Origin: Beroe forskalii
Taxonomy: Eukaryota; Ctenophora; Nuda; Beroida; Beroidae
Direction of reading: 5' to 3'
Assembly: GCA_011033025.1 (NCBI GenBank)
Contig: WFMF01000008.1
Span: forward strand, 377,001-441,000
Length of the DNA: 64,000 nt
How positions within the stretch are numbered: the first letter of the stretch is position 1; each line of letters opens with the position of its first letter. The notes under the pieces are model-generated. The model had not been told where the DNA came from. It saw nothing but the letters and a program-made list of their open reading frames with translations, and did no database searches. Shown in pieces: positions 2,495 to 60,482 of this stretch. Made by a program: the position numbers and the translations under genes.

Positions 2495-4167
2495 TGATTG
2501 ATTGATTGATTGATTGAAAACCCTCGTGAGGGCACCGCTAAGGGCTTTTAAATATATGATATTATATTGTACTTTACATTCAAAAAATATATGGATATAC
2601 TATAATCACTTTATTATAAACGTTAAATCACTCAATCAAATAGAAATATGGAAAGTAAAACTTCAAGTCAAGCTATATATGCCATCTTCGGCTCACCGTC
2701 TTTATTATGGTGACATTATGTCAAAATCACTTGTTATGATTTCAACTCGCTATTCATTCTCAAATCTAACATACCCCCATGACACTCGTTACTATAATTA
2801 GAGATCTTTATGTTGATAATCTGGATAAGTATCATAAGTGATATTAGCACATTTAAGGTTTGAGCGCTACACTTTTATCAATTTAATTGATGACGTTCGC
2901 ACGCGTTGGCAGTTAAGATGGTAATGAATGTGAGATAAGTAGCTGCAGATATGCGCTGTGCTATGAATGCCTCACTATGTGCTTATGTGCTGTTTAGATC
3001 GTGTATTTCGGGCCGATTTTCTCAACCCGTTGATTTTGTGTAAAAGAAACTGTGGCCATTCCTCATTGTCAGCATCGCCATATTGATTCATGAGTAACAT
3101 TCTTTTGATAGCTGATTTGTATAACGATAATGATGATTTATTTTCGACCGTTAGAACTGACTGATTTTCGTCACTGAGCGTGAGCAGTGGCCCTTTATTG
3201 AAGACAGATGATATGAAAGGTACACCATTATATACAGTTAGCCAGTCTAAGCAATCATGATGAGTTTCCCCAACTTTTGGGATGTTGTCTGGGATTGTTT
3301 TCACTATGGACGATGGCAGTAGGTTCGGGAAATGTAAGACTTTATGCATGAAGAGGAGAGTATTTTGTACAATAATTCCGTGCACTGTTAAGATTTCGAA
3401 CTCTTTGAAGTAATTTTTTGTATGGGTTGGTGTTTCACCTTCATTGAAAAAGTATTTGACAAAACCAGGCATGATGGCCCGCATTCCTCGCTTTTGTTTG
3501 ATAAACAAAGATTGAATATGTGTCTTGGCAGCAAATCCCCAGATTAATGAGCAGTAATTTAGATGAGATTGGACAAAAGAATGGAAAATTTGAAGACGTA
3601 TTCCGACTGGCAAACGGTGTTTAATCCTGAACATTATCCCCAGGTACCTTGACATTTTCATGTTAACTGCCGCAATGTGATGGGACCAGTTTAATTTGTC
3701 ATCCATTATGACCCCCAGGAAACGGCATTCGCTTTTACGTTCTATATTTACACTGTTTATCTTCAATTCAATATTTGATAGGTCTAATCGTTGCCGTGCG
3801 AAGATCATGCACTTAGTTTTCTTCAGATTTAGAGCCAAACCATTGAAACCGACCCATGTTACGAGGATTTTACTTAGTGAATTTACATTTTGCATCACTT
3901 CGTGTAGACTATTTCCAGTTATGATGATATTAGCATCGTCGGCGTATAGTATGAACCGGGCAATTTGAGAAATATGTGGTAGATCATTAATGTAGATTAT
4001 AAACAAGAGAGGGCCTAGTATGCTACCTTGAGGTACCCCGTAGATAATTGGCTTAGTCGAGGATTGAGAGCTGTTAACTGATACGAATTGCTCTCTAGAA
4101 GTTCTAAGTATCATCTCTATTTGTACCTGACCCTGACTGATCTTCTGGTGTTCTTCAGTTTATTGAA
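2495..4167 (-). mobile_element. 5'-truncated non-LTR retrotransposon
   Basis: The element is read on the minus strand. Its upstream limit is unclear: the reverse transcriptase frame is stopped by a TAA near 4165. After the coding part comes an untranslated region that ends in a small GC hairpin (agcggtgccctcacgaggg, plus coordinates about 2522-2540) and then a TCAA/TGAT microsatellite tail at about 2495-2517. A GC hairpin followed by a simple-repeat tail is typical of CR1/L2/RTE-like non-LTR retrotransposons. The endonuclease and the first RT motifs are missing, so this copy is dead. Confidence 0.75.
2975..4114 (-). CDS. Reverse transcriptase, C-terminal part (non-LTR retrotransposon)
   Basis: This is an uninterrupted frame of 379 residues. 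The RT palm motif GVPQGSILGPLLFIIYINDL lies at about residues 27-46. The catalytic YADD follows in the context FILYADDANIII at about 54-65, then LALNLKKTKCMIF and FLGVIMDDKLNW, the usual order in Jockey/CR1-like enzymes. The remaining 200 or so residues are the thumb and a C-terminal region without a visible RNase H. The fingers and the endonuclease are missing upstream. The second copy of the element family is represented only by its 3' end at 4398-4459. The lack of stops over 1.1 kb suggests a fairly recent insertion. Confidence 0.85.
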   Translation of the reverse strand: MILRTSREQFVSVNSSQSSTKPIIYGVPQGSILGPLLFIIYINDLPHISQIARFILYADDANIIITGNSLHEVMQNVNSLSKILVTWVGFNGLALNLKKTKCMIFARQRLDLSNIELKINSVNIERKSECRFLGVIMDDKLNWSHHIAAVNMKMSRYLGIMFRIKHRLPVGIRLQIFHSFVQSHLNYCSLIWGFAAKTHIQSLFIKQKRGMRAIMPGFVKYFFNEGETPTHTKNYFKEFEILTVHGIIVQNTLLFMHKVLHFPNLLPSSIVKTIPDNIPKVGETHHDCLDWLTVYNGVPFISSVFNKGPLLTLSDENQSVLTVENKSSLSLYKSAIKRMLLMNQYGDADNEEWPQFLLHKINGLRKSARNTRSKQHIST

Positions 4168-15765: not shown

Positions 15766-16021
15766 ACTACTGAATATTTGTTAAGAGTGACTTTTAAATT
15801 CAACCCTTTATAAAGTCTGCAATCCCTCCAGGAAAGAATATCCGGGAGTTGTTAGAAGTGAATCATTTCAGTTCTTCGGTGGAGTCGCATAGCAACTATA
15901 GTACTATGCAGTATATCATACCCTGTGGTTTTAAGTAATTGAGAATTTCTGAGCTATGAAGTGTACTATCATGTCCAGGTCCAACTCATAATTTTATAAT
16001 AGAGATCTCACTGTATTTGAT

Positions 16022-18497
16022 ATGGACATTTCTGGAAGCACGTGGTTATTTTTGTTGTCTGGTGTCTTCTTGCTTGGTACCTGGGCATCTGAAGACAAGG
16101 AAAGCAAGAATATCTTCTTGAAATACTTTAGAATAGATAAATCAGGCTCGAAGGAGCAAGAAAATTGCCTCTTACATGCAACTAAGTTCTTTACCTCTGC
16201 TAAGCATTTAAATAGTATCAAAGAGAAAGCAATCTCATCAGAATCAAACAGTTTTTCCATAATTTCAACCACCAACTCATCATCAAAGAATTCATGCGAA
16301 TTCAACTTTGATTTTTTATACTTTTTAAAGTCTTTAATCGATCGTTCACTCTACCAAAAGTCCAGGGCATTGTTAGATTTCAATTGGTACTGTGAACCTG
16401 TTTTGAGTTACAGTCCTAATCATTCTCCATACTGTGATGATTATTCATACTGTCTAACTGATGAATGTAACTGTCAATCTACCCATAACAGCACTGATGT
16501 GAACAAGTCTGTGTTTTTCTGTCCTGATCAATCTGGCTGCATCTCTTTCAAAAATGTCTGCGATGGCAAACATGATTGCAAAGATGGGTCTGATGAATGC
16601 ATATGTGAGGGATATATACAACTAAACTGCTCTGTTTTAGCTTACAGACTTTATTGTGTATCCGTTGAAAATTTCTGCTCCGAGATGTTTACTAAGTCAT
16701 TGTTCCGAAGGCTGATTTCGAAATGTATTTCAGAAATGGGCATTTCAATTGAATGCAAAAATGCTCATAATTTGGTTCCTACTGTTTATGAGACCAACCC
16801 AGTATATTCCTGTATGTCAAGAAATCGCATGATCATTTGGAAAAACTATAAAACACTTCCTCTCAGTGAAGGTAGTGATATGATAGTTTCCTTCTGTCAA
16901 AATAATTGTTCAAGATATTTTGATGGTAAAAACTGGGAAGTTTTTTGTAAGATGATTAAACCTATCAATCCAGATGGAATGTTTGGGTTTTCAATACTTT
17001 GTGATGGCAATTATCACTTTGGGTCCAAGATTTGTGATGGAAAAGTAGATTGCAAAAGTGGAATCGATGAAATGAAATGCCCTGACCGTTTTTATTGCGC
17101 AAAAAACAGTACTGAATGGGTTGAGTTGAACAAAGTTTGTAATAACATCAAGGATTGTTCAACTGGGTCAGATGAATGTGAAAATTGTGACATGGGGTAT
17201 TTTTCATCGTCTAAGCTTTTGATAAGCTCAAAAGTTGTGTTGACTTTGACATCAATAATCTGTGTGGCAATAATTCTACTGAATGGTGTGCAGGGATACA
17301 CTTGCTTTGTCACACCATCTTCAAATCAAATTGGAGAGATAAACAGAATTTTGGCTTTGCAAGTGTACTTTTATGACATGGTCATGGGTGTTTACCAATT
17401 TCTAGTTGTCATTGCCACTGCAGCCATCAATCTGAAAGGCAACTATTGTGAATTTGACCAGGATTGGAGAGCAAGCACCTACTGCATTATTTTAGGAATA
17501 CTTTATACCCTTTCTTCTCATGGTTCTCTCTTGTCTATTGTGCAACTTAGCGTTGTCCGGTGCATATCTATTCTATCAAACAACACCATTCATATCAGAA
17601 GTTCTACCATTCTATACATATCTGGTATTTTAGCCGTTTTCAATGTCTTTAACTCTATAATTCCTGTCATCCCTTTACCGTCTGTTCAAAATGTCTTCAG
17701 AACAGAAATATTCTTGAGTTTCCCAAAGAGAAATCCATCCCTCAGTACTAATCCACTCAATTATACTGTTCTGAAGGTAACCCATGAAAGAGTCTTTGGC
17801 AAGAAGGAATCTGATATAAATAGAATACTCAGTGATTTCAGAGGCACAACATCCGATGATAAAATGTGGGAAACCATCGAGATAAGCTATTATGGAACAT
17901 CTGCTCTTTGCTTGCATAATGTGTTCAAATCTCAAAAGTCTTTCATTCCATACAAAATTACATATCTTGTCATAATTTTGCTGCTTCTATTCATCATGTC
18001 TGGTGCATATGTTGGAATTATTGCTAAGAATAAACGAATGAAGAAGAATATTCGTGATATAGAGGGTAGAAAACATATTCAAAGAAAGATTGACTCAGTA
18101 TCCTTAACACCAAAAGCAATGTGGATGATTGGAACTCAGTTGTTATGTTGGTTTCCCTTCATAGGAGCAGTAGTTTGGTATATGTGTAGAAGGGATGAAT
18201 CACCACCAAGTATTGTACTCGAAGTGATTTCCTTCCTGCTTATTCCTAATTAATAGCCTTCTCAACCCACTGTATTACAGTAAGTTGTATAAAGCCATAG
18301 TGAATACCTTGAGAGTTATTTTTGGATGTGTCAAAATGGGTCCAAATGAAAATCGTGAAGAAATGGAATTGAAGCCAATAAACTGTTCTGTGCCTACACA
18401 TTCCACGAAGAAAACTCAAAATGCTTCAAACGCGGAAAATCTGCATGTATTAAGTAGAACTCATAATCCCAATCCTCGTAAAACTGAGCTTCTCTGA
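16022..18497 (+). CDS. LDLa-domain G-protein-coupled receptor (rhodopsin-like), frameshifted in TM7
   Basis: A single-exon frame of 743 codons (16022-18253) starts with a signal peptide (STWLFLLSGVFLLGTWAS). Three LDL-receptor class A modules follow at about residues 163-194 (CDGKHDCKDGSDEC), 321-353 (CDGKVDCKSGIDE) and 357-387 (KDCSTGSDEC). Then comes a 7TM region: TM1 about 402-425, TM2 442-470, TM3 484-514, TM4 528-550, TM5 645-667, TM6 698-721, TM7 from 730. The layout resembles relaxin/GRL101-type receptors, though no leucine-rich repeats are seen. The usual DRY after TM3 reads VRC, which may affect G-protein coupling. The frame stops just after SFLLIPN. One base to the side it continues NSLLNPLYYSKLYKAIV, the expected NPxxY and helix 8, into a 70-residue tail ending at 18497. 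One extra A at 18247-18249 explains this: a recent pseudogene, a null allele or a sequencing error. Confidence 0.85.
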
Positions 18498-59466: not shown

Positions 59467-60482
59467 TTAAGGGGCAGGCTTGGTGGCTTTGAAGCACTTG
59501 GCATGTTTCAGCAAATCCCTCAACTCGCCCGTCATCTCCAAATACTCCAAATCTGAGGCCCCTCCAATGAACTTTCCCTTGAGGAAAACCCTCGGTAACT
59601 GCGGGGGAGGAAGGAGTGTTATTACTTTCATGTTTCAATCCCCAGCTAATTCTAATTTATTAAAATTATGAAAGTTCTTAAAATTATGACACTATGACAG
59701 TTCAATGAATTGACTCACGCTTCTGCCATCGGATATCTCAAGGAACCTATCCCTGATGCTATCTTCGTCTGGGGAGCCTTTGATGTCTATACTCGTCAAA
59801 AGCTTAGACTTGACACCGCTACGTCTGGGAAAGTAAGGGTTAAAAGCTTAGGCGCCTGTAACGTTCGTCGGTCGATCGAATGGAATAGGTCGATCGATCA
59901 ACTCCATTGGAACGAATGATGTGTTTTAATGGTCCCTAATGACTTGAATCGTGATTAAATGAGCAATATTAAGTTGTTTCCCTACTAGCTCATAGATTTT
60001 CTATTTAAAACACATCAGTCGGCCAGTTCGATCGAAACAACGAACGTTACATTGCCTTTAGACTTGACCCCGCTACGTCTGGGAAAGTAGGGGTCAAAAG
60101 CTTAGAGTCTAAGTTAGACTTGACACCACTCCCAGTGGTCAAAAGCTTAGACTTGACACCACTCCCTGTGGGAAAGTAGGGGCTATAAATTTTAAGAAAG
60201 TCGTAGAATATTTAAAATTCAATTGCCAATTTGCAGAATTGTACAATTCTGAAAACAACGGTGTACATTGTACAATGTAGTTGTACATTATGCAATGTAC
60301 ATTGTAATTGTAACGTGTATAGAAATACATTGCACGCATGTGCGATACAGTGATGAAACATTGGTTATATGCATACCTGAGGGCAGATAAGGCTCGCAGA
60401 GAGAAAGGGTCTTCACTGGCAACGAACACCACGACTTTATTCGAATCAATGGATTCTCGGACAAATTTCACTGCCGGAGTCT
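59467..60482 (-). CDS. Glutaredoxin-fold protein lacking both active-site cysteines (partial, 3 exons)
   Basis: Exons on the minus strand: 60377-60482, 59719-59824 and 59467-59598 (stop 59467-59469), joined with consensus sites (tttcag, gtatgc, tttcccag, gtgagt, ccgcag). The joined frame gives about 113 residues. NKVVVFVASEDPFSLRALSA is the first strand and active-site helix. SKLLTSIDIKGSPD follows. LPRVFLKGKFIGGASDLEYL holds the cis-proline loop and the GG of the glutathione site. DLLKHAKCF is the last helix. The layout and spacing match dithiol glutaredoxins or the glutaredoxin domain of thioredoxin-glutathione reductase. However, the CPxC site reads D-P-F-S, so it should lack thiol-disulfide exchange. 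It may bind glutathione without catalysis or act as a scaffold. The 5' exon and start are not found, and a larger protein is possible. Confidence 0.75.
59857..60051. mobile_element. 195-bp MITE in the glutaredoxin-like gene intron
   Basis: The inverted ends are tgtaacgttcgtcggtcgat and ttcgatcgaaacaacgaacgttaca (the last 12 bases match exactly). Inner aatgatgtgttttaat pairs with atttaaaacacatc. The target duplication is unclear, possibly TTA. It splits a tandem repeat whose units copy the start of the middle glutaredoxin exon. Confidence 0.75.
60058..60185. repeat. Tandem copies of a 3' splice site and exon start
   Basis: Three further copies of a unit of about 45 bp that begins the middle glutaredoxin exon and its acceptor (minus strand: cctactttcccag then acgtagcg-ggtcaagtctaa, 20 bases or fewer each). 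One copy keeps an intact acceptor (60086-60094). Another has cccacag before ggagtggtgtcaag. The unit also holds aagcttttgacc. The real exon start is at 59824. Confidence 0.8.

Follow-up and report, generated by a model that had tools for sequence, protein, structure and literature searches.

A Grx1-type glutaredoxin gene of the ctenophore Beroe forskalii without catalytic cysteines and its probable retention as a binding protein

Introduction

What becomes of a glutaredoxin that has lost both cysteines of its active site? The question is raised by a gene of the ctenophore Beroe forskalii, which lies on the minus strand of a 64,000-nucleotide stretch of contig WFMF01000008.1 (positions 377,001 to 441,000; hereafter the window, in whose numbering positions are given). 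Three exons between 59467 and 60482 encode a glutaredoxin-fold protein in which the CPxC motif of the family reads D-P-F-S. The product is probably a redox-dead pseudo-glutaredoxin of Grx1 type, in which the thiol chemistry has been lost and the fold kept, and which would serve as a binding protein. Of the marks of a redox-dead pseudoenzyme of this fold, a sequence relation to working enzymes and the loss of catalytic residues are found here, and maintenance by selection has indirect support. Proteins of the thioredoxin fold without cysteines are not rare: in one figure of PMC2757866, the Cys-containing motif is absent from 22% of the sequences, mostly glutathione transferases, and some cysteine-free members of the fold are reported to have become binding proteins (PMC12827327).

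Gene anatomy

The three exons join in phase over GT-AG sites into 113 codons without an internal stop, followed by TAA (joined translation TPAVKFVRESIDSNKVVVFVASEDPFSLRALSALRRSGVKSKLLTSIDIKGSPDEDSIRDRFLEISDGRSLPRVFLKGKFIGGASDLEYLEMTGELRDLLKHAKCFKATKPAP). Exon A (60377-60482, minus strand) encodes beta-1 and the active-site loop (...NKVVVFVASEDPFSLRALSALR), and carries the replacements of Lys by Ala, Cys by Asp and Cys by Ser. Its borders are TTTTCAG/AG at the acceptor, where an alternative AG is possible two bases further in, and CTCAG/GTATGC at the donor. Exon B (59719-59824, minus strand; ...RSGVKSKLLTSIDIKGSPDEDSIRDRFLEISDGRS), in which the Gln of helix 3 is replaced by Arg, is bordered by TTTCCCAG/ACG and AGC/GTGAGT. 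Exon C (59467-59598, minus strand) runs from the acceptor CCCGCAG/TTACCG and the cis-Pro loop LPRVFLKGKFIGGASD through the stop codon, ending in CCT TAA, and holds the sole Cys of the joined stretch, residue 105. The introns between them, also read on the minus strand, span 59825-60376 (A-B, GTATGC...CCCAG) and 59599-59718 (B-C, GTGAGT...CGCAG). The exon coordinates, splice sites and frame given in the original prediction are thus correct, and its reading of Asp and Ser at both catalytic positions is found again in the codons GAC CCT TTC TCT. A single base error cannot give D-P-F-S, because the change from Cys to Asp takes two base changes.

No in-frame ATG lies between the stop upstream of exon A and the start of the domain; the gene model therefore lacks at least one 5' exon. 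It would join in phase 1, or in phase 0 if the second AG of exon A were used. We judge it very unlikely that the domain forms the C-terminal part of a larger protein with upstream exons, with a partner domain setting its role. In favour of this reading, a 5' exon is required but was not pinned down, and an acidic open frame of 130 residues lies on the same strand 7.4-7.8 kb upstream (L010:4802-4413). However, the domain starts almost directly after the junction, as in a stand-alone Grx1, and the upstream open reading frames (at least 110 amino acids in the window, at least 80 in L010) show nothing domain-like by eye, no family search having been made of them.

Family assignment

By its sequence, the joined protein is clearly glutaredoxin-like and of Grx1 type, with a similarity far above chance. 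A phmmer search against PDB chains returned 39 distinct sequences at E ≤0.001, all named glutaredoxin, thioltransferase, GLRX2, thioredoxin reductase 3 or glutaredoxin fusion. The best match was 4i2t (E 3.8e-17), followed by 7ncv and human thioltransferase 1b4q, the latter aligned without a gap across 99 residues. In the Pfam scan, Glutaredoxin PF00462 was the sole family (30 bits against a cut-off of 22.9, E 6e-7), which bears out the family originally proposed; the SH3BGR family PF04908 was absent among the Pfam matches listed up to E 1, a range in which the HMMER filters drop most matches above about 0.1. The NCBIfam equivalog for eukaryotic glutaredoxins, TIGR02180, scored 57.5 bits, under its curated cut-off of 87.25, and six more NCBIfam glutaredoxin models likewise scored under theirs.

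The protein does not belong to the monothiol class II (Grx5/PICOT type, CGFS). TIGR00365 reached 31.2 bits against a cut-off of 117.1, the motif is DPFS, and around the preceding loop, which is longer in class II, the alignment to human Grx1 is gapless. Of the features of class I enzymes, the N-terminal catalytic Cys of CPxC or CPxS is replaced by Asp, and the activator Lys three residues before it by Ala. The cis-Pro loop of TVP type and the GG-x-x-D element are present as SLP, with Leu for the Val of TVP, and as GGASD. Identity to working glutaredoxins is 36.6% for human, 36.2% for pig, 36.0% for 4i2t, 34.3% for 7ncv, 33.0% for a glutaredoxin of the same assembly (on contig C655) and 28.2% for 4hjm.

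Lost and kept residues

These six working glutaredoxins (human and pig Grx1, 4i2t, 7ncv, C655 and 4hjm) were aligned with the D-P-F-S protein. Twenty-nine columns are alike in at least five of the six, and the D-P-F-S protein keeps 17 of them, including the active-site Pro, the loop Arg, cis-Pro-Arg, Gly-Gly, Asp, Gly and Leu. The 12 changed columns comprise Lys to Ala, Cys to Asp, Cys to Ser, Lys to Arg, Gln to Arg and Tyr to Arg, together with Leu to Phe, Leu to Ile, Thr to Ser, Gly to Asp, Val to Leu and Ile to Leu; half of the 12 are counted as mild. The activator Lys, both Cys and the helix-3 Gln are invariant in the six working rows, and all four are changed here. The cis-proline loop, described as kept by the original prediction, is indeed found in the alignment as SLP.

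Since both catalytic Cys are replaced, neither thiol exchange nor a mixed disulphide with glutathione is possible at this site. This agrees with the original prediction that the protein cannot perform dithiol exchange, and the loss is wider than was noted there, extending to Lys to Ala and Gln to Arg. The conserved Lys is reported to belong to the glutathione activator site, importance is also ascribed to the helix-3 Gln, and both are reported to matter in yeast Grx7 and in mutants of human Grx5 (PMC7138851). With both residues replaced, as judged by alignment position, ordinary glutathione binding is also doubtful.

A non-covalent glutathione binder, acting as a sensor or buffer, is for this reason quite unlikely. 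In its favour, the Arg-Ser-Leu-cisPro loop is kept together with Gly-Gly and the next Asp, and an aromatic residue still follows the active-site Pro. Against this stand the replaced Lys and Gln (PMC7138851) and two acidic residues at the site, where Glu-Asp occupies the catalytic corner within an acidic rim of S-E-D-P-F-S. The glutathione-binding role offered in the original prediction is therefore unsupported as stated; the scaffold or regulatory role also offered there is conjectural.

Searches for copies, alternative exons and relatives

A cysteine-bearing exon used in place of exon A would change this picture, and the original prediction had itself named an alternative CPxC exon as the finding that would overturn it. 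A profile of the active-site exon, built from the six working rows, was run over 83.5 kb (the window and 19.5 kb beyond) in all six frames, covering 4478 open stretches, and no alternative Cys-bearing exon was found there. Among the best ten rows, the top one is the D-P-F-S exon itself (i-E 0.044), and the next are fragments of 4-8 residues at i-E of at least 0.21. As a control, the profile detected the active-site exon of C655 with an i-E of 4.8e-10.

No second copy or allele was found in the 216-Mb assembly by a protein search at E up to 10, which scores the best candidates only, so that a very diverged copy could escape it. The search returned the locus itself (three exons, 92-96%) and two other glutaredoxins, on contigs C655 and C312. 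On this evidence, the D-P-F-S locus is single-copy and intron-bearing. No relatives were confirmed in viral and prokaryote contigs, and none are expected of a nuclear eukaryotic gene. A search of the assembly for the SH3BGR family gave no match and is uninformative, its control having been silent in all 14 genomes as well. Among the papers listed by the literature searches, none describes a glutaredoxin with a D-P-F-S motif, though one may still be in print; the passages of one review mention neither GRXCR, SH3BGR nor sponge (PMC8102999).

Maintained or decaying

A rather unlikely alternative is that the gene is young and decaying: catalysis would have been lost recently, selection relaxed, and a disabling change would have yet to strike. 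Compared with working glutaredoxins, the protein has evolved faster at conserved sites, some of the changes in and after helix 3 are radical (Tyr to Arg, Gly to Asp), and the adjoining intron has taken up a dispersed repeat and local duplications. Yet splice sites and phases are intact, and several codons differ by more than one base without any stop or frameshift; reaching the 12 changed conserved codons from any codon of the family takes no fewer than 19 base changes. Most of the hydrophobic pattern also persists, with 22 of 27 columns kept (columns hydrophobic in all working rows, Cys being counted), and two of the five misses are the catalytic cysteines themselves. In a neutral simulation with 0.2 changes per site, and on the assumption of 0.1 indel per substitution, an open frame survived with a probability of about 0.0002. 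Long neutral decay is difficult to reconcile with the intact frame.

Several points weigh against a maintained binding protein. In a leave-one-out measure of conservation, the D-P-F-S protein keeps 20 of 32 sites, which also fits relaxed selection; the working rows keep 26/32, 29/32, 26/33, 27/32, 29/34 and 24/29 (79-91%), a comparison that is slightly uneven in that five others serve as the standard for a working row and six for the D-P-F-S protein, and that human and pig Grx1 are 81.9% identical. In the simulation at 0.2 changes per site, the probability of no stop in frame was about 0.21 when stops alone were counted, as decay would allow; both neutral figures assume that every change came after the loss of the cysteines, and the joint one depends on the assumed indel rate. 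The GC content at third positions of the joined exons is 0.57, compared with 0.39 overall and 0.33 for its introns. Values for seven further coding stretches, in the window and on other contigs, range from 0.36 to 0.55 (nearest, a GLRX5-like one on C197, 0.547), so the value sits at the edge of the range and is a hint, not a clean coding signal. The scan upstream for the 5' exon, which used a donor-site matrix, yielded candidates that were either weak or far off. Finally, any purifying selection after the loss of the cysteines is presumed, with indirect support from the sequence. A redox-dead binding protein nevertheless remains the reading that we favour, and under it the gene would be expressed and selection would have continued after catalysis was lost.

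Repeats in the A-B intron and neighbouring sequence

The A-B intron contains a dispersed-repeat stretch (59847-60025) that matches a repeat of the assembly. With 40 of 817 candidates scored, it had 88 matches besides its own locus, and the long ones were 87-97% identical. Inverted repeats of 12 nucleotides nearby (59857-59868 and 60040-60051) point to a short element, its ends placed provisionally. The intron also bears two copies (within 60058-60194) of a 48-nucleotide stretch, at 60058-60105 (94%) and 60147-60194 (77%). Their source, 59804-59851, covers the acceptor of exon B and its first 21 bases, giving three copies in all between 59804 and 60194, and the dispersed-repeat stretch sits between them. 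A 20-mer core of the 48-nucleotide repeat has two occurrences in the assembly, both at this locus. The possibility that the start of exon B is a repeat artefact was considered and rejected, as the core is local and the length with this exon agrees exactly with that of human Grx1; for the same reasons exon B would be the original and the intron copies derived from it. The dispersed repeat and the duplications account for the odd intron, and the coding frame is untouched.

Elsewhere in the window, a short degenerate run of telomere-like CCCTAA repeats lies inside the contig at 57369-57443. A long open frame at 16019-18246 has an LDL-receptor class A domain, part of it looks by eye like a seven-helix receptor, and neighbouring frames bear LDL-receptor A, ephrin-receptor-like and ELAPOR1-like repeats.

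Other glutaredoxins of the assembly

The assembly holds further glutaredoxins. Those on C197 and C312 are of CGFS type. A minus-strand open frame of 392 residues on C852 (L001:538-1716) has an N-terminal glutaredoxin domain with GCKEC, and its remainder presumably resembles DEP and DUF547 domains. The protein on C392 carries CPFC and, by eye, is taken to resemble PTGES2. C655, also with CPFC, is the sole glutaredoxin of the class I dithiol type turned up by these searches. Its protein is closest to 7ncv (48.9% identity) and 4i2t (45.7%), which we take to be green-algal chains, against 37.1% to human. For this reason, and because its intron is odd, the C655 contig could come from the organism of the D-P-F-S gene or from another.

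The C655 gene (L016:3436-4255, equal to G000:C655:60435-61254) is split by about 0.5 kb, single-copy in the assembly, with the same 11 bases, CAGGATTTACT, at each end. With donors tried up to 3600 and acceptors from 4031 to 4110, the lone frame-keeping GT-AG join found loses about ten residues of the beta-2 region, and the full-length join lacks GT-AG. Three readings would account for the interruption: a non-canonical intron flanked by direct repeats, an insertion, and a foreign contig.

A proposed mechanism and comparison with known systems

The course of events that we propose starts from an ancestral Grx1-type protein, in which the nucleophilic Cys would have become Asp, the resolving Cys Ser, the activator Lys Ala and the helix-3 Gln Arg. 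At the changed site a mixed disulphide with glutathione is impossible, and the usual way of holding glutathione was probably lost. Placed where the active-site helix begins, the Asp could cap that helix and take the structural place of the thiolate charge, and the former substrate groove with its acidic rim could dock a protein partner. We put forward only tentatively the broader idea that a protein of the Grx1 lineage has become a dedicated non-enzymatic binder, with a carboxylate for the thiolate and a groove that recognizes protein. Such a protein would be an independent counterpart of the SH3BGRL route, derived from a still-recognizable class I glutaredoxin.

Compared with class I dithiol Grx1 (human GLRX, 1jhb/1b4q; 4i2t; 7ncv), the B. 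forskalii protein shares the cis-Pro loop, the GG turn and the Asp after GG, but is without the catalytic Cys, the resolving Cys, the activator Lys and the helix-3 Gln. Members of the SH3BGRL family have a thioredoxin fold without a catalytic motif and are reported to be non-enzymatic cappers of actin pointed ends (PMC12827327). In contrast to them, the D-P-F-S protein still matches the Grx1 branch by sequence, and PF04908 is not among its listed Pfam matches. Another example is GRXCR2, a glutaredoxin-domain protein described as binding other proteins (taperin, CLIC5) at stereocilia; its contact with CLIC5 is reported to lie in the N-terminus instead of the glutaredoxin domain (PMC8131845). 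The Grx1 of Trypanosoma brucei lacks the activator Lys, as does the D-P-F-S protein, but is reported to react with glutathione disulphide (GSSG) and has thus kept its thiol chemistry (PMC7138851). By analogy, the D-P-F-S protein may work like SH3BGRL or GRXCR2, though membership of either family does not follow from this. This kind of enzyme retirement is already known; what is new is a starting point of Grx1 type still close to its working relatives. At 33-37% identity to five of the six working glutaredoxins (28% to the sixth), and without a gap to human Grx1, lost and kept residues can be read directly from the alignment.
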